From positions 1,674,001 through 1,738,000 of the forward strand of contig NZ_JAGINX010000001.1 in the NCBI RefSeq assembly GCF_017876395.1: a stretch of 64,000 bases of DNA, written 5' to 3'. The DNA comes from Nesterenkonia lacusekhoensis (GTDB lineage Bacteria; Actinomycetota; Actinomycetes; Actinomycetales; Micrococcaceae). Position 1 is the first letter of the stretch. Each line of letters begins with the position of its first letter. Both the position numbers and the translations under genes were made by a program. Of this stretch, positions 14,165 through 25,338 are shown one piece after another. Below the pieces are notes generated by a model. The model was given only the letters and a program-made list of their open reading frames with translations, was not told the origin of the DNA and did not search any database.

Positions 14165-14191
14165 TCGGCCTCCCCTCCTTCACCCTCGTTC

Positions 14192-14273
14192 ACCCTCGTT
14201 TTACCAAGGCATTTTCGGTTTACCCGCCCGTATACGTGAGGGTTATCTGAAAAGTGCTTGGTAAAACGAGGGT
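14192..14273. repeat. 82-bp palindromic element, copy 1
   Basis: Terminal 17-bp perfect inverted repeats (ACCCTCGTTTTACCAAG at 14192-14208 and its complement at 14257-14273), a largely self-complementary interior, and GTATAC exactly at the dyad centre (14230-14235). It begins 28 nt after the permease stop. Copy 2 at 15509-15590 has the same length and differs at about 7 positions. A partial duplicate of the left end (CACCCTCGTT) immediately precedes it at 14181-14190. It may be a terminator-like or mobile REP/MITE-like element. Confidence 0.85.
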
Positions 14274-15508: not shown

Positions 15509-15590
15509 ACCCTCGTTTTACCAAGGCGTTTCCACTTTACCCACCCGTATACGTGGGGGTTATCCGAAAAGTGCTTGGTAAAACGAGGGT
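15509..15590. repeat. 82-bp palindromic element, copy 2
   Basis: Same 17-bp terminal inverted repeats as copy 1 (15509-15525 and 15574-15590), same length, GTATAC at the exact centre (15547-15552). It begins 28 nt after the AbiEi-like stop codon, the same distance as copy 1 has to the permease stop, and the two stops share the context CTGAYCGGCCTC. It lies between convergent genes and could act as a bidirectional terminator. Confidence 0.85.
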
Positions 15591-15613
15591 GCGCAGAGGG
15601 GCAAGCGAAGCGC

Positions 15614-18792: not shown

Positions 18793-19491
18793 TCAGTCAC
18801 CCGTCATCAGAGCGAAGCGCGTGGCGCGGGCGCTCCGCATATGAGCGATGGACAGCTTCTCCGCCTCGTCGACGTTGCCCTTGTCGATCGCTTCGATGAT
18901 CGCCTCGTGCTCCTCGAACCCGTCATGGGGCTGGCTCAGCTGAGATGCTGTGCGGCCGTGGAAACGCCGGATGACATTGTCCAGATGCTTTCCGAACCGT
19001 TCGATGTATTTGTTCCCGGTGTGAGCACGCAGCACGGCATGGAACCTCATATTGGCCGCATGCCATGCATCGGTGTCGCGGGTATCGATCGCAGCACGCA
19101 GCTGCTGGTTCACGGCACGCAGCTCGGCCACCAGCTGAGGCGATGTCCGGATGGTCGCCAACCGGGCGGCAAGACCTTCGACCTGTTGCCTCAAGGCGTA
19201 GGCAGCGATGAGGTCGTCCATGAGAAGGGGAGCGACTTGGGCTCCCCTGTTCGGCAGACGGACCACTAGATCCTCATCCACCAGGATGCTGATCGCATCG
19301 CGGATGGGCGTGCGGCTCACTCCGAGCAGCTTGGCGATGGCGTCCTCACGGATCCAGGCCCCCGGACCGAGCCGGGTCTCGACGATGCACTCCCTCAGGG
19401 CCGCTGTCACCCGTTTGGTGCTGCCCAGGTGTTTGGGCGCCTGGAGGAAAGCCTCCTTCAGGCCCGGAAACTCTTCCTGGTCCGCCGACAT
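18793..19491 (-). CDS. GntR family transcriptional regulator (FadR/FCD type)
   Basis: 232-residue DNA-binding regulator. The N-terminal winged helix reads [40 protein letters not shown], typical GntR; the C-terminal all-helical FCD domain ([54 protein letters not shown]) carries candidate metal/ligand histidines. The ATG at 19491 follows GGGAGGG closely. It is the last gene of the importer/hydrolase module and most likely senses the imported compound; a GntR-like inverted repeat lies in the module's leader at 25304-25324. Confidence 0.92.
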
Positions 19492-19522: not shown

Positions 19523-20413
19523 TTATGCCTGCTCGTTGAGATAGGCGGACAATCCAAGGGTGCCGAAGGCCGCCGAGACGTCCCGGGGAGAGCTGACTGA
19601 GGAGAGAGTTCTCCAAGCGGGATGGAACGCCGCGGCGCAGACCCATCCGGCAGTGCTCGAATGGGTGATCAACACCGATGCGCACCCTTGATCCTCCCCC
19701 TGAGACAGGCTCTCCCATCCAGAGACCGTCCAATGTGGCACCCGATGGGGACCGTGCCCGGGCAGTGCGCTGGCCAGACCTCCCGGTTCAAAGACCCCGC
19801 GCATCCACCTCAGGACGGAGCGGGAGGCCTCCGGAGCGATCATCACAGACCGCCTCTCCTCCCCTTCCATCGAGGCGCAGAGGTAGGCCAGCAGACGGAG
19901 GAGATCCTGAGGCGTCGTGGTCCCCAGGAACCCTTCTCCGGCCGAGCCCTGCGGCCCCTCCAGCCCTGTCACCTGTGTGCTTGTCAGCATCAGCCGCGTG
20001 AGCAGCTCCTGGGCAGCCTGCCGGAGGTCGACTCCCCGCCGGTCGAGGAACTCGAGTAGAGCGAGTGCAGCGGCCGCGTCCCCGGTGGAGAGCACGAGAT
20101 TCGCCGCATCGTCGACGCTGAGACTCATATCCCCGGAGAGCAGCCTGAGCGTTCCTGTACGCGCCTGTCCCCGGTGTTTGTCCAACAAAGATACGCCCGC
20201 GGCGAGAAGACTCGGATCCTCCACACTCAGTTCGGCGAGAACAGTGCCGAAGATGAGTTTTCCCGCACCCGAGAAGGGATGCACACGGTCCTCCCCCTGT
20301 GCTGCGCTGCCGCCGTGATGCGCTTCGACGCTGAAGGAGAGGCCGGGCAGCGCCCCAGAAAGCTCGATCACCGGCAGCACAGCGACCTGGGCGACATCGG
20401 TCTCACTGAACAT
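19523..20413 (-). CDS. Degenerate class A beta-lactamase-fold protein, paralogue of the upstream hydrolase
   Basis: 296 residues from the ATG at 20413 (GGAGGAG 8 nt upstream; overlaps the upstream gene by 11 nt). Local patterns align with its neighbour: FSGAGK (47-52) against FSTRK, and VLSTGDA (107-113) against VMSTSDN. Thus the nucleophile Ser-x-x-Lys spacing is broken or the Ser is replaced, and the SDN Ser and Asn are Gly and Ala; no Lys-Thr-Gly motif is evident. No signal peptide, so probably cytoplasmic. A non-catalytic partner or regulatory subunit of the active paralogue is the simplest reading, but it is inference. Confidence 0.75.
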   Translation of the reverse strand: MFSETDVAQVAVLPVIELSGALPGLSFSVEAHHGGSAAQGEDRVHPFSGAGKLIFGTVLAELSVEDPSLLAAGVSLLDKHRGQARTGTLRLLSGDMSLSVDDAANLVLSTGDAAAALALLEFLDRRGVDLRQAAQELLTRLMLTSTQVTGLEGPQGSAGEGFLGTTTPQDLLRLLAYLCASMEGEERRSVMIAPEASRSVLRWMRGVFEPGGLASALPGHGPHRVPHWTVSGWESLSQGEDQGCASVLITHSSTAGWVCAAAFHPAWRTLSSVSSPRDVSAAFGTLGLSAYLNEQA

Positions 20414-21281
20414 AGGACCACTCCTCCACGGCGATGCCCACACGGGCGAACAGGTCGAAGGCGGCCACCCGCCCGGGCACCCGATTCGGCAGGGTCGTGG
20501 GGATGGACTCCGCATAGATCGCAACGGCTGCCAGAGGTTCCCTGCCATCCCTCAGCGCCAGTCCGACCTGGGACAGGCCGCGGAGGCCACGGCCATTCTT
20601 CTCCGCGAACTGTATATCTCGGGTGGAGATGCCCAGAGCGGGGGTGAAGATCGTCGTCATGGCTCCAAGGGCGAACCGGCACTGCTCCGAGGAGAGACGT
20701 AGGACTTCCGCTCCTTCTTCGCTCCGGCATCCTCGTCCGAGCCTCTCCAGCAGGAGGCACTGATCTGCAGCGGTGGTCACCGTCACTGAATCCAAGGAAT
20801 GGCTCCATGTGAACTCCGCACTGCGGGGGAAGATCTCCCGGTGCATCGTGGAGTACAGACCCACCCAGGCACAGTAGTCGTTGACCCACTGCAGAGGATC
20901 AGATTCCACCGAGCCGATAGCCTCGAACACCAGTTGGGTGCAGATGTTGTCGCTGGTGCTCATGACTTGGATGAGAGAGTCGCGGAGAGTGAGCTCGATG
21001 CCGCTTGAAAGGTTGCGCATGATCCCCGCCTGGACACCTTCCTTCATCTCAGGCCGGATGGTGAGGGTCTGATCGAGCGAGAGTCTGCCCTCTTCCACCA
21101 GAGCCAGGCAGGCAAGCATCACACTGACCTTCCGGGTACTGAAAGACGCCACGGTCTGGTCTGCCTTGCGGCCGACGGCATCGTGGGTCCCGACCGGGCG
21201 GATCTGCCAATGCAGGTCGAAGGGATAGTGTTCGGCAAGCCCTTCGATGTGCCTGCCCAGGTCATCCAAACTCTTTCTCAC
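20403..21281 (-). CDS. Class A beta-lactamase-like serine hydrolase, cytoplasmic
   Basis: 292 residues. It keeps the serine-hydrolase motifs: Ser48-Thr-Arg-Lys51 (SxxK), Ser110-Asp-Asn112 (SDN) and Lys228-Asn-Gly230 (in place of Lys-Thr-Gly). The class A Glu166 motif is not visible, so classic beta-lactam hydrolysis is doubtful; an amidase, esterase or peptidase role is more likely. The N-terminus (MRKSLDDLGRHIEGLAEHYP) is no signal peptide. The GTG start at 21281 has GGAG and AAGG upstream. It sits directly after the importer genes, which suggests action on the imported substrate. Confidence 0.82.
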   Translation of the reverse strand: MRKSLDDLGRHIEGLAEHYPFDLHWQIRPVGTHDAVGRKADQTVASFSTRKVSVMLACLALVEEGRLSLDQTLTIRPEMKEGVQAGIMRNLSSGIELTLRDSLIQVMSTSDNICTQLVFEAIGSVESDPLQWVNDYCAWVGLYSTMHREIFPRSAEFTWSHSLDSVTVTTAADQCLLLERLGRGCRSEEGAEVLRLSSEQCRFALGAMTTIFTPALGISTRDIQFAEKNGRGLRGLSQVGLALRDGREPLAAVAIYAESIPTTLPNRVPGRVAAFDLFARVGIAVEEWSYVQ

Positions 21282-21314
21282 AACAGGTGCCTTCTCCGAT
21301 CAGACAGAGGCTGT

Positions 21315-21351
21315 GTGCCGGATGAGGAAGTGTATCTTCCTCATCCGGCAC
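21315..21351 (-). terminator. 16-bp perfect hairpin after the binding-protein gene
   Basis: Arms 21315-21330 and 21336-21351 are perfectly complementary (GTGCCGGATGAGGAAG and its complement) with a 5-nt loop. No U-run follows on the minus strand. Such hairpins after a binding-protein gene usually stabilise its mRNA and reduce expression of downstream genes, here the two hydrolase-like genes and the regulator. Confidence 0.65.
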
Positions 21352-21366
21352 ATGCCGAGGCGGGAA

Positions 21367-22431
21367 TCAGTTGAACAGGCCGTGCCAGAAGTCGGCGTCG
21401 TCCTGGTAGTGCTCGAGGTAATCGTCTTTGGAGATGGTCCAGACCCTCTCATCGTCGAGGGGCGGCAGTTCGGTGTCCCCCAATCCGGGCAGCCCAACCT
21501 CGGAGTTCACCGGGTAGTCACCGACCTCTGTGGCGAACGACTGCCCTTCCGTGGACAGCGTCCAGTTGATGAAGACCTCAGCGGCTGCGGAGTTCTCTGC
21601 CTGCTCCGTCAGACCGATGACCACCTGGTTGACGGGGAAGCCTTCGTCCGGGGCCACCATCGCGATGGGGGCACCCTCTTCCGCCGCGGAGAGCCCGACC
21701 GTGGAGGGGACCGGCCCTGAGACGATCTCTCCCCGGGCCATGGCGTCGGTCAGCGGAGACGCTGAATCGAACACCCGCACATCGGTGTCTGCCTGCTCCG
21801 TCAACCAATCATCGCCCATCACCTCCCGTTGGAATCGGACCAGCTCCTGCGAAGTGCCTGACGCAGTGATCTCCACGGCGCCGGAGGGCTCCAGCGTCAG
21901 CAGGTCATCCCAGCTGGTCGGGGGCTCACCTTCATGTTCCATCTCGTTGTATCCGATAAGGTAGGGCCGGTTGTACGAGGTGTAGTAGAGCCCCTCCTCA
22001 TGCACAGCCTCCTCGGGGAAGTCGAAGTCCTCGGGAAGATTAAGCTGCTCAAAGACCCCAGCTTCGGAGAGTTCGTCGATCATGTCCCACCCGGAGGTCC
22101 GGATGACGTCCGCGGCAAGCTGTCCGGACCCATGTTCGCTGAGCGCCCGTTCGTTCAAGCGGCTCGGAACGATCCGGATCACTTCTCCGGTGATCCCGGT
22201 GAGCTCCTCGAACTCATCGAGGAGGAACTGTTCCCCGGCTTCTCCCGAAGCCGTGTAGAAGGTGAAGGTCCCTTCTTCCCGGGCCTCCTCTAGGAGCTCG
22301 GCTGTGGCGATGGTCTGTCCGTCGATGACCAGGTCCTCCCCTTCCTCAGCAGTCCCCTCCGTTCCGCCTCCGCAGGCAGAAAGTGTCAGGGCTCCCAGAG
22401 TGAGCAGGGCGGCTTGAGATCGGATCTTCAT
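21367..22431 (-). CDS. ABC transporter substrate-binding lipoprotein (Fe3+/phosphonate-type cluster)
   Basis: 354-residue type 2 periplasmic-binding-protein fold anchored as a lipoprotein: lipobox LSAC with Cys20 followed by GGG. The mature part reads EEGTFTFYTASGEAGEQFLLDEFEELTG, NERALSEHGSGQLAADVI and YNRPYLIGYNEME, characteristic of the AfuA/FbpA/2-aminoethylphosphonate-binding group. The tyrosines that bind ferric iron in FbpA are not obvious, so the ligand is open. It lies 27 nt after the permease gene and is followed by a strong hairpin. Confidence 0.9.
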   Translation of the reverse strand: MKIRSQAALLTLGALTLSACGGGTEGTAEEGEDLVIDGQTIATAELLEEAREEGTFTFYTASGEAGEQFLLDEFEELTGITGEVIRIVPSRLNERALSEHGSGQLAADVIRTSGWDMIDELSEAGVFEQLNLPEDFDFPEEAVHEEGLYYTSYNRPYLIGYNEMEHEGEPPTSWDDLLTLEPSGAVEITASGTSQELVRFQREVMGDDWLTEQADTDVRVFDSASPLTDAMARGEIVSGPVPSTVGLSAAEEGAPIAMVAPDEGFPVNQVVIGLTEQAENSAAAEVFINWTLSTEGQSFATEVGDYPVNSEVGLPGLGDTELPPLDDERVWTISKDDYLEHYQDDADFWHGLFN

Positions 22432-22458: not shown

Positions 22459-24162
22459 TTATTTGCGGTCCAAGAGCTGGGAGACGACGGCGAGCGCGCC
22501 GATGATCAGCGTGTAGATGACTCCGATAGCGGCTGCCAGGGCGAACTGCCCGTTCTCGTACGCGTCGAAGATGACGATCGAGAGCAGCCGCGTGTCGGTG
22601 GTGTAGAGGAACAGCGGAACGGTCAGTTCGCGCATGCTGAGCATCAGCAACAGGACGAACGTCGCCAGTAGAGAAGTCCTCAGCAGAGGTGCGGTGATGG
22701 TCACCACCGCCTTGGTTCGGCCTGCTCCGTGCATGACCGCCGCATCCTCCAGGTCGGAGTTGAACTGCAGGATCGAGGCGCTGGATCCACGGAACCCTTG
22801 GGGCAGAAGGCTCGCGATGAAGGCGATGACCAGAAGAGCGATGGTGCCGTAGACGGGCAGAGGAAGGATCAACCACGTCCAGAGCAGACCCATACCCAGC
22901 ACGATCGCCGGGACCGCGAGCGGCGTCATCGCCAGATATTCGATCCACCTCCGCGCCGGAGCCTTGGTCCGATAGGTCAGGTACGAGCACAAGAAGCAGA
23001 ATGCCGTGCCGATGACCGCGACCAGCAGCGAGACAGTGATCGAGTTGCCGATGGCGCTCCTGATCTGGCGGTCTTCGAAGACGCCGGTGAAGCGATCCAT
23101 ACTGAAGCTTCCTGCCTCTGCCATACCGGAGATGGTCTGGATGTACGGTGAGGAATACGTGGCGATGACGATCAGGCTGAGCACGGGAAGCACGACGGAC
23201 ACCAGGAAGTAGAGCATCGCGGCGAGCAGCGCGGGAGTCCGCCACTTTCCAAGACTAACCAGTTTGGACTTGCTCCCCTTTCCGGAGACCGTTGCAAAGT
23301 CCTTCCTCGCCAAATACCAGCGCTGCAGCAGGACCACCAGCGCGACGGCCAGGACGAGGACGATCGCAATGGCGGCGGCATCGTTGCCCCGAGAGGGCGA
23401 CATGCTCATGTAGCGGTAGATCAGGGTCGGCAGCGTGTCAACGCCGCCGGGCCGGGCGATGAACTGCGCTACTGGGAAGTTCTCGATGGAGATCGTGAAC
23501 GCCAGGAGAGTGGAGCCCAGGATAGCGGGCGTCATCAATGAGAGCGTGACCTTGCGGATTGCGGTCTGGATAGGAGCGCCGTGGATAACAGCGGCATCTT
23601 CCAGGTCCGTGTTCATCAGCCGCAGGGCCGAATAGACCATCAGGAAGACATACGGAGAGTTGTAGACCCCCAGGATGAAGATGAAGCCCGGGAAGGAGTA
23701 GATGTTGACGAACGGCTCCGCTCCAAGATCTCTGAGCAGCGCATTAGCCAACCCGGTGGGCCCGGCTAGCACAGACCAGGCGAGGGCAGCGACGAAGGCG
23801 GGCATGAACATCGGAGCGAGTCCGGCGAGGAAGACGAACCGGCGGAAGCGGACATTCGTCCTGGCGGCCAGCAGCGCCAGTCCGACACCGAGGAACAGGG
23901 AGAGCAGCGCTGAGGTGGTGGCCGCGATGAAGGAGTTCGTCGCGGCCGACGCGGTGGCCGCAGAGAAGAGAGAGGACAGTGAGTCCGTGCTCAGATTCTC
24001 CAGGCTCAGGTTGCCCGGCCGTGGAAGGACGTCAGTGACAGCCGCAAAGATGACCAGCGCGATCGGAAAGCCGATTAGCACGATGAGCGCGGCGATCACA
24101 CCGAGGGACAACAGGTTCGAGGGAGTCAGGGACCGGCGTGTGGGATGTGGAGTCTGTACCAT
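22459..24162 (-). CDS. ABC transporter permease, two fused permease domains
   Basis: 567-residue membrane protein with two BPD_transp_1 domains in one chain, about 12 spans, the FbpB/ThiP-like arrangement. Each half has an EAA loop: DLEDAAVIHGAPIQTAIRKV (first half) and DLEDAAVMHGAGRTKAVVTI (second half). The two halves are clearly homologous. It lies 8 nt after the ATPase gene and 27 nt before the binding protein, so the three form one importer. Confidence 0.93.
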   Translation of the reverse strand: MVQTPHPTRRSLTPSNLLSLGVIAALIVLIGFPIALVIFAAVTDVLPRPGNLSLENLSTDSLSSLFSAATASAATNSFIAATTSALLSLFLGVGLALLAARTNVRFRRFVFLAGLAPMFMPAFVAALAWSVLAGPTGLANALLRDLGAEPFVNIYSFPGFIFILGVYNSPYVFLMVYSALRLMNTDLEDAAVIHGAPIQTAIRKVTLSLMTPAILGSTLLAFTISIENFPVAQFIARPGGVDTLPTLIYRYMSMSPSRGNDAAAIAIVLVLAVALVVLLQRWYLARKDFATVSGKGSKSKLVSLGKWRTPALLAAMLYFLVSVVLPVLSLIVIATYSSPYIQTISGMAEAGSFSMDRFTGVFEDRQIRSAIGNSITVSLLVAVIGTAFCFLCSYLTYRTKAPARRWIEYLAMTPLAVPAIVLGMGLLWTWLILPLPVYGTIALLVIAFIASLLPQGFRGSSASILQFNSDLEDAAVMHGAGRTKAVVTITAPLLRTSLLATFVLLLMLSMRELTVPLFLYTTDTRLLSIVIFDAYENGQFALAAAIGVIYTLIIGALAVVSQLLDRK

Positions 24163-24170
24163 CGGGCGGC

Positions 24171-25271
24171 CTACTTCGACTCTTCATCCATGGGAACGGT
24201 GATCGCTTCCTCCGCGGAGAGAACGACGTCGACCTTGTCACCGACGGATGCCTCGACCGACTCTCCCCCGTAGGGTGCACGTTTGACCACGGCCTGGATC
24301 GTCAGTCCTCCGCAGTCGACCTCATAAGAGATGTCGCTTCCCTGGAAGATCGAGACGGTGACCTCTCCTGTGAGTACTGCTCCCTGAGAGCTGTGGGCCT
24401 GACTCGGGGCCGCTAGACGCACCTGCTCAGGACGTATGCACAGCGCCCGCCCGTTCTCCCACGAGGTGGGGGCCGTCCCGGCGGTTACGGGGACGCCTCC
24501 CAGACCGAGGGTACCTTCTGTACCGCGGCTGATCTCCAAGACATTGCCCATACCCAGGAAACGCGCGATGTACGAGGTGGCCGGCTCGTCATAGATCTCC
24601 TGCGGCGTCCCCAGCTGAACGATGGTTCCACGCTTCATGATGGCGATCTTGTCTGCCAGCGCCATAGCCTCGCTCTGATCGTGGGTGACATAGACCGACG
24701 TCAGCCCGGCTTCCCGCTGGATACGGCGCAGCTCGTTCCTCAGGCGCACACGCAGCTGTGCATCCAGGTTGGAAAGCGGTTCGTCGAGGAGCAGCACAGC
24801 AGGCTCCATAGCGATGGAGCGTGCCAGTGCTACGCGCTGCATCTGGCCGCCGGAGAGGGCAGAGGCCCCGCGGTCTGCGAGGTGCTTCAGCCCGATCATG
24901 TCCAAGGCTTGGTCTGCCTTGCTCTGCACCTGCTCCTTGGAAGCCTTCTTCGCCTTCAGACCGAATGCCACATTGGCACGAACGGAACGGTCGGGCCAGA
25001 TTGCATACGACTGGAAGACCATTCCTACATTGCGGCGGTTGGGAGCTACGTTCTTGCGCCCCACTGAGTCGAAGACGACGTCATCCCCGATGCGCAGGTG
25101 CCCATCATAGGGGGTCTCCAGCCCGGCGATGCAGCGCATGGTACTGGTCTTGCCGCAGCCGGACTCACCCAGGAGCACCAGTGACTCTCCATCGGGCACG
25201 TCGAGAGAGATGTCGTCGACCGCCACGAAGTCGTCGTACTTGAGAGTCAGACCGCTGATCTCAATATCCAC
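24171..25271 (-). CDS. ABC transporter ATP-binding protein
   Basis: 366-residue nucleotide-binding subunit with a C-terminal TOBE domain. Walker A GESGCGKT, Q-loop VFQSYAIWPD, signature LSGGQMQRVALARS, Walker B VLLLDEPLSNLDA and the switch histidine in VTHDQSEAMALAD are all present. The C-terminal 120 residues (ALCIRPEQVRLA, GSDISYEVDCGGL) match the TOBE region of FbpC/PotA-like ATPases. The GTG at 25271 is chosen because GGAGGG lies 8 nt upstream. First gene of the six-gene module, with promoter and operator upstream. Confidence 0.93.
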   Translation of the reverse strand: MDIEISGLTLKYDDFVAVDDISLDVPDGESLVLLGESGCGKTSTMRCIAGLETPYDGHLRIGDDVVFDSVGRKNVAPNRRNVGMVFQSYAIWPDRSVRANVAFGLKAKKASKEQVQSKADQALDMIGLKHLADRGASALSGGQMQRVALARSIAMEPAVLLLDEPLSNLDAQLRVRLRNELRRIQREAGLTSVYVTHDQSEAMALADKIAIMKRGTIVQLGTPQEIYDEPATSYIARFLGMGNVLEISRGTEGTLGLGGVPVTAGTAPTSWENGRALCIRPEQVRLAAPSQAHSSQGAVLTGEVTVSIFQGSDISYEVDCGGLTIQAVVKRAPYGGESVEASVGDKVDVVLSAEEAITVPMDEESK

Positions 25272-25303
25272 AGAAAATACCCTCCGCGATGCGAGCTTAG
25301 ATT

Positions 25304-25324
25304 TTGTATGCGGTTCGCATTCAA
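25304..25324. promoter_or_regulatory. Candidate GntR operator in the module leader
   Basis: TTGTATGCG-GTT-CGCATTCAA, a 9-bp inverted repeat with one mismatch and a 3-bp centre, lying just downstream of the predicted transcription start and upstream of the ATPase start codon. The position fits repression, and the only regulator of the module is the GntR/FCD protein. Confidence 0.5.
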
Positions 25325-25338
25325 CCTGCACATAAAGA

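Follow-up and report, generated by a model that had tools for sequence, protein, structure and literature searches.

The window analysed here, that is, the whole stretch of 64,000 nucleotides from Nesterenkonia lacusekhoensis (contig NZ_JAGINX010000001.1, positions 1,674,001 to 1,738,000), carries on its minus strand two overlapping genes of one protein fold, BL1 and BL2, of which the first has kept and the second has lost a nucleophilic serine.

20403..21281, minus strand: BL1, putative catalytic subunit, a class A beta-lactamase-fold serine hydrolase (292 amino acids, GTG start, no leader)
19523..20413, minus strand: BL2, putative pseudoenzyme subunit of the same fold (296 amino acids, ATG start)
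20403..20413, minus strand: overlap of the BL1 and BL2 genes, 11 nucleotides

The coordinates, strand and 11-nucleotide overlap given in the first-pass annotation of this DNA were right. The closest named relatives of BL1 belong to Nesterenkonia and Garicola. Genus searches recovered BL1 from 31 genomes in total, namely 17 of 30 in its own genus, eight of nine in genus g21 and six of eight in genus g4; the single g21 genome without it is 71% complete.

BL1 matches the Pfam family PF13354 (Beta-lactamase2) from residue 27 onwards, with an E-value (E) of 9.1e-26 and 91 bits against a cut-off of 22. Each subunit was modelled singly by AlphaFold from an eight-row alignment, and the best model of BL1 (predicted template modelling score, pTM, 0.80; predicted local distance difference test, pLDDT, 77; the four remaining models at a mean pLDDT of 49-67) found PBP-A (2j8y, E 6.7e-12) as its top Foldseek match. 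The residues that the first-pass annotation had named are all present in the window, as Ser48-Thr-Arg-Lys51, Ser110-Asp111-Asn112 and Lys228-Asn229-Gly230, and the Ser-x-x-Lys, Ser-Asp-Asn (SDN) and Lys-Asn-Gly (KNG) motifs are kept in 31/31 genomes. BL1 carries Lys-Asn-Gly in every genome in place of the class A Lys-Thr/Ser-Gly (KTG/KSG), and it falls short of the NCBIfam bla_class_A cut-off (35.5 bits vs 200). Penicillin-binding proteins (PBPs) and beta-lactamases have Thr or Ser where BL1 has Asn, and this replacement disfavours the usual contact with the carboxylate of a beta-lactam or of D-Ala. Glu149 sits in the motif HRExFPR in 31/31 genomes, within a stretch (147-166) that is poorly modelled (pLDDT <50).

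BL2 also passes the PF13354 cut-off (E 3.8e-7, 30.1 bits), and its model (pTM 0.79, pLDDT 73; the four remaining models at a mean of 63-67) has 4ewf as its top Foldseek match (E 4.1e-11). Structure prediction of each protein, set beforehand as a test, did not yield unrelated folds, and both proteins match class A beta-lactamases. In the window the nucleophile region of BL2 reads Ser48-Gly49-Ala50-Gly51-Lys52, with Gly49 aligned to the nucleophile of BL1, and the SDN equivalent reads Gly111-Asp112-Ala113. BL2 had been called degenerate because it had lost the nucleophile spacing and turned SDN into GDA; the latter change and the loss of the nucleophile stand, the former claim does not, since the nucleophile column holds glycine and the lysine is retained, so that the serine has been replaced rather than mis-spaced. 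Across the 31 genomes the nucleophile position of BL2 is always Gly, SDN never occurs and its third position is never Asn; Ser-x-x-Lys together with SDN is found in 31/31 BL1 and 0/31 BL2 proteins. BL2 retains the Lys beside the lost nucleophile (29/31), the Asp of SDN (31/31) and the Glu of a TG-x-E motif (30/31), which aligns weakly with the omega-loop region of 6pq8 (E 0.69). The tandem class A-fold pair proposed in the first-pass annotation is therefore real, and the pattern of a live and a dead copy goes beyond chance, since both proteins pass the Pfam cut-off, class A beta-lactamases are matched by each model and 31/31 genomes show the pattern again.

The co-occurrence of the two genes is strict. 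Among 395 family genomes the BL2 profile hit 31, exactly those that hold BL1, and in a set of 149 family genomes the strong BL1 matches and the BL2 matches fell in the identical 18, with four further genomes showing BL1 matches at E 2e-4 to 2e-5 only. In 31/31 the BL2 gene comes after that of BL1 and shares its strand, and the dead same-fold homologue is, as in prozyme-like systems, always found with the live one. In 15 of the 31 genomes the two form one fused frame (8/8 in g21 and 7/17 in the own genus, one of these being Garicola koreensis, L062, the same region as L079), and two PF13354 stretches were scored in one fused relative. The split form is found in the other 16, ten in the own genus and six in g4. 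In the ten own-genus split genomes the BL2 match starts 8 or 11 nucleotides before the end of BL1, and the BL2 start codon lies at the 11-nucleotide overlap position in all six Nesterenkonia relatives read; for three of the six g4 split pairs a 4-nucleotide overlap is possible, judged by first possible starts. Outside the family, a sample of the order gave a match in one of 396 genomes, which was the own genome. Taken together, BL1 and BL2 look like an obligate pair.

Purifying selection acts on BL2, though more loosely than on BL1. With the overlapping codons excluded, the median ratio of nonsynonymous to synonymous substitution (dN/dS) among nine close split Nesterenkonia genomes (36/36 pairs) was 0.14 for BL1 and 0.26 for BL2, with a BL2 maximum of 0.35; the medians were 0.40 and 0.51 in g4 (15/15 pairs usable), and 0.07/0.08 (2/28 pairs usable) and 0.34/0.49 (7/21) in two further groups. 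We relied on these grouped values because a broader set of 262 pairs (medians 0.46 and 0.52) mixes lineages with near-saturated dS. In the BL1 gene tree (L063-L092), the split copies cluster together across the own genus and g4, and the fused ones, from the own genus and from g21, lie apart from them (93/97, not starred). This grouping across genera reflects either inter-genus transfer or a genus that is not a single lineage, and a single change between the split and the fused form, in either direction, would explain the data. BL2 may be a recent duplicate of BL1, on which two results point different ways. When the family was searched with the BL2 profile, scoring up to 6 candidates in each genome, the only places other than BL2 among the matches listed at E 1e-8 were the BL1 genes of G000 and G518. 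In the family tree, by contrast, BL2 stands apart from BL1, on long branches flagged as possibly false.

Concerning the cellular location, leaders were sought by the highest 15-residue hydropathy mean at the N-terminus, which is our own scan and not a signal-peptide program. This maximum stayed below 1.0 in 26 of the 31 BL1 N-termini and reached 1.05-1.55 in the remaining five (L071, L073, L074, L076 and L084), for the first four of which the BL1 start is unsure on account of long open frames upstream. By the same measure, two paralogues of exported type that this genome also encodes scored 2.05 and 1.85 and carry lipobox-like motifs. Only 6 open codons precede the BL1 start in the window, so the absence of a signal peptide from BL1, already noted in the first-pass annotation, is borne out, and with it BL1 departs from the export that is typical of class A enzymes. 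The N-terminus of BL2 in the window is mildly hydrophobic (1.63) with no basic residues ahead, and BL2 is internal in the 15 fused proteins. A cytoplasmic location is the likeliest reading.

We therefore propose, with a probability of roughly 0.62, that BL1 and BL2 together make up an obligate, probably cytoplasmic enzyme of two subunits, in which BL2 is a needed pseudoenzyme and a working part of the BL1 enzyme. As the two genes are always together and in about half of the genomes joined as one protein, the dead copy would very probably work as part of the live one. Ser48 of BL1, activated by Lys51, would attack an amide or ester to give an acyl-enzyme, in a pocket lined by Ser110-Asp-Asn112 and Lys228-Asn-Gly230, while BL2 would pair with BL1, which, as with a prozyme, would need it in order to be stable, to become active or to select its substrate. 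The substrate may be a small amide or ester other than a beta-lactam, as KNG in place of KTG/KSG and the lack of export suggest (a more speculative step), and in the window strain it could enter via the adjacent importer. The physical complex of BL1 and BL2 and the supporting role of BL2 are what we infer. The co-occurrence (31/31), the 15 fusions, the residue loss and the purifying selection lend support to the earlier proposal, in the form of a probably cytoplasmic class A-fold hydrolase with a dead partner. The fuller statement is tentative, and we would put it somewhat short of even odds: a dead class A-fold domain would be a required subunit of a cytoplasmic serine hydrolase, split or fused, and would activate or gate its live counterpart, with neither beta-lactams nor muropeptides as the substrate.

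Several observations weigh against the two-subunit enzyme. The structural models are of single subunits built from eight-row alignments, with clearly weaker second-best models; BL2 is more variable than BL1 (41 vs 96 columns conserved in at least 29 of 31 genomes); and 0.6-1.1 kb lie between BL1 and BL2 in three g4 genomes. Furthermore, distant kin of BL1 occur in three genomes with no adjacent BL2, and since these kin do without it, the chemistry does not depend on a partner in all lineages.

These distant kin were traced through a class sample, in which the BL1 profile matched four of 394 genomes including the own; outside the family, G659 matched at E 4e-40 and two more at about 1e-11, and a sample of the family of G659 gave three of 200 genomes. 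The kin (L125, L129 and L130, all in large actinobacterial genomes) share 32-34% identity with BL1, fall into one group with it in the family tree (100/98) and have KSG vs the KNG of BL1. In 3/3 cases they stand directly ahead of a Dpp-type binding-protein gene (L129 checked with Pfam; L125 and L130 by likeness); a gene for a PF03417 (AAT) protein is likewise part of the L129 operon, and L125 has a LacI gene on the opposite side of the BL1 kin. As a lead, these surroundings suggest that members of the wider family may act on imported compounds by amide or peptide chemistry.

In the window itself, the order of genes along the minus strand is that of an ATP-binding cassette (ABC) importer ATPase, a double-domain permease, a binding protein, BL1, BL2 and a GntR/FCD regulator, at successive spacings of 8, 27 and 85 nucleotides, the 11-nucleotide overlap and 31 nucleotides. 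The features around the pair are as follows.

24171..25331, minus strand: ABC importer ATPase (PF00005, PF08402; best NCBIfam model PhnT2, 331 bits vs 458)
22459..24162, minus strand: ABC importer double-domain permease (PF00528 twice; best NCBIfam model PhnU2, 149 bits vs 593)
21367..22431, minus strand: ABC importer binding protein, lipoprotein-like (PF13343; best NCBIfam model PhnS, 32 bits vs 395)
21314..21352, minus strand: perfect 17-bp stem-loop between the binding-protein gene and BL1, without a U tract
18793..19491, minus strand: GntR/FCD-type regulator (PF00392, PF07729; start at 19491, 31 nucleotides behind BL2)

For the importer and the GntR protein the best NCBIfam models were PhnS, PhnU2, PhnT2 and phnR_burk, all far under cut-off, and the binding protein, permease and ATPase each miss the cut-offs for 2-aminoethylphosphonate importers. 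This gives a hint that their substrate could be related to, yet different from, 2-aminoethylphosphonate. The region 21285-21366 folds with a free energy (dG) of -44.6 kcal/mol (z -6.87), and none of 200 shuffles did as well. The stem-loop at 21314-21352 is absent from the terminator-like sites found; it may lower read-through into the pair, and an attenuator, a processing site and a repeat element are all candidates for its identity.

The neighbourhood was compared across 37 loci from 30 relatives, seven of these loci being second copies and some being short (6.5-20.9 kb). The binding protein and permease of the window had no match beside the pair in any of them. The ATPase found matches of 26-31% near the pair, of the general ABC kind only, and the GntR protein a 33% match about 8 kb from the pair in two relatives. 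Among the loci examined, the GntR protein and the binding protein are specific to the window locus. The uptake operon as a defining unit was accordingly rejected as a rule. For the same reason, and with a hairpin in between, the first-pass idea that the pair processes a compound brought in by the importer and sensed by the GntR protein found no support as a rule. The link may nonetheless be true of the window strain, given how closely the start of the GntR gene lies behind BL2, and transporters unrelated to the importer adjoin the pair in some relatives.

The neighbours in relatives, of which 40 proteins (part of the total) were checked with Pfam, are diverse. An NMT1-type binding protein lies directly upstream of the pair in L066 (by Pfam; L065, L068 and L069 fall in the same cluster), and TctCBA lies near it in L071 (by Pfam; same cluster in L073), while L072 has a divergent periplasmic binding-protein gene and an ammonium transporter downstream. 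Other genes near the pair encode a LysR regulator (L059; same cluster in L060), a major facilitator superfamily transporter (L063; same cluster in L059 and L060), a MarR regulator (L067), a universal stress protein (L083), glutamate synthase and a NUDIX protein (L062), and urocanase, amidohydrolase and arginase-family proteins (L076). A cupin gene (L077:8086-8484) overlaps the start of a fused BL1-BL2 gene by 4 nucleotides. On these gene contents we take the pair as an independent unit in changing, sometimes catabolic surroundings. Separately, one g4 genome has a PF00144 (class C-type) beta-lactamase-family gene divergent beside BL1 (L075:11032-12438).

What else could the pair be? BL2 might act as a ligand sensor: with substrate or product bound in its nucleophile-free pocket, it would turn BL1 or the regulator on or off. 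The three residues retained in BL2, with the weak alignment of the TG-x-E Glu to an omega loop, fit such a role; the remaining pocket motifs are lost or variable, and the retained residues may serve folding, so we regard the sensor as unlikely. The pair might instead cleave imported muropeptides or peptides, in the manner of the DD-peptidase PBP-A but in the cytoplasm. The fold of BL1 is nearest to PBP-A and the distant kin directly precede Dpp-type genes, yet BL1 has KNG where PBPs have Thr or Ser and where even the distant kin have KSG, and the importer of the window is not of the Dpp kind; this possibility appears more doubtful still.

Two further explanations were rejected, and we give each of them very little credence. 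An ordinary exported beta-lactamase that confers antibiotic resistance and has a second, spare gene beside it would agree with the PF13354 match and the weak bla_class_A match, but the latter stays far below its cut-off, BL1 has no leader, its motif is KNG and no clear Glu166 is seen. That BL2 is a functionless, decaying duplicate could be argued from its lost catalytic residues and its faster change than BL1; a decaying pseudogene would hardly keep an open frame and its order in 31/31 genomes, be fused to its neighbour in 15 and show dN/dS values of at most 0.35, well below 1, in nine close genomes. The obligate two-subunit enzyme is thus the reading that we prefer.

To our knowledge, no pair of a catalytic and a pseudoenzyme subunit is known in the class A beta-lactamase fold, and among the open-licence papers listed we found none that describes a class A-fold partner without activity, nor anything relevant for Nesterenkonia. 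Work on class A beta-lactamases, which serve as a model family for the evolution of enzymes, treats them as single domains that suffice on their own. The best fold match of BL1, PBP-A of Thermosynechococcus elongatus (2j7v, 2j8y, 2j9o), is described as class A-like, lacking the catalytic omega-loop glutamate of beta-lactamases and acting as a DD-peptidase on muropeptides (PMC11189452); it is not known to have a dead partner, and the KNG motif sets BL1 apart. LRA-5 from a soil metagenome (8eo5, 8eo6), also among the best fold matches, has a class A fold without Glu166, but is a single protein whose abstract names no partner (PMC12777564). Cpe/ORF12 of Streptomyces clavuligerus matches BL1 in sequence (E 6e-6); the additional domain there is N-terminal and resembles isomerases/cyclases rather than being a dead beta-lactamase-fold domain, and BL1, with its PF13354 match from residue 27 and 6 codons upstream, has no such domain. 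Fusions of class C and class D of the LRA-13 type do hold two beta-lactamase domains per protein, but of unlike classes, both described as functional (PMC5967600). A dead paralogue as a required activator is reported for the trypanosome S-adenosylmethionine decarboxylase (AdoMetDC)/prozyme (PMC5201418) and deoxyhypusine synthase (PMC3663545) pairs. The likeness of AdoMetDC/prozyme to BL1/BL2 is one of working principle only: the trypanosome pairs are eukaryotic and of unrelated folds, and activation, shown by experiment in them, is a proposal for BL1 and BL2. Cytoplasmic class A-fold proteins are likewise already on record (PMC6478378).

If the two-subunit enzyme is true, the route by which an inactive domain turns into a subunit that the enzyme needs would be directly testable in the class A fold. 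The pair also points to an uncharacterised cytoplasmic hydrolase, and it counsels caution in labelling such genes as beta-lactamases or resistance genes.

Finally, elsewhere in the window, a palindromic repeat of about 83-113 nucleotides occurs twice between genes (14191-14273 and 15509-15591); the copies are 83% alike, also when inverted, and the open frames on both strands of these two repeats are probably spurious.
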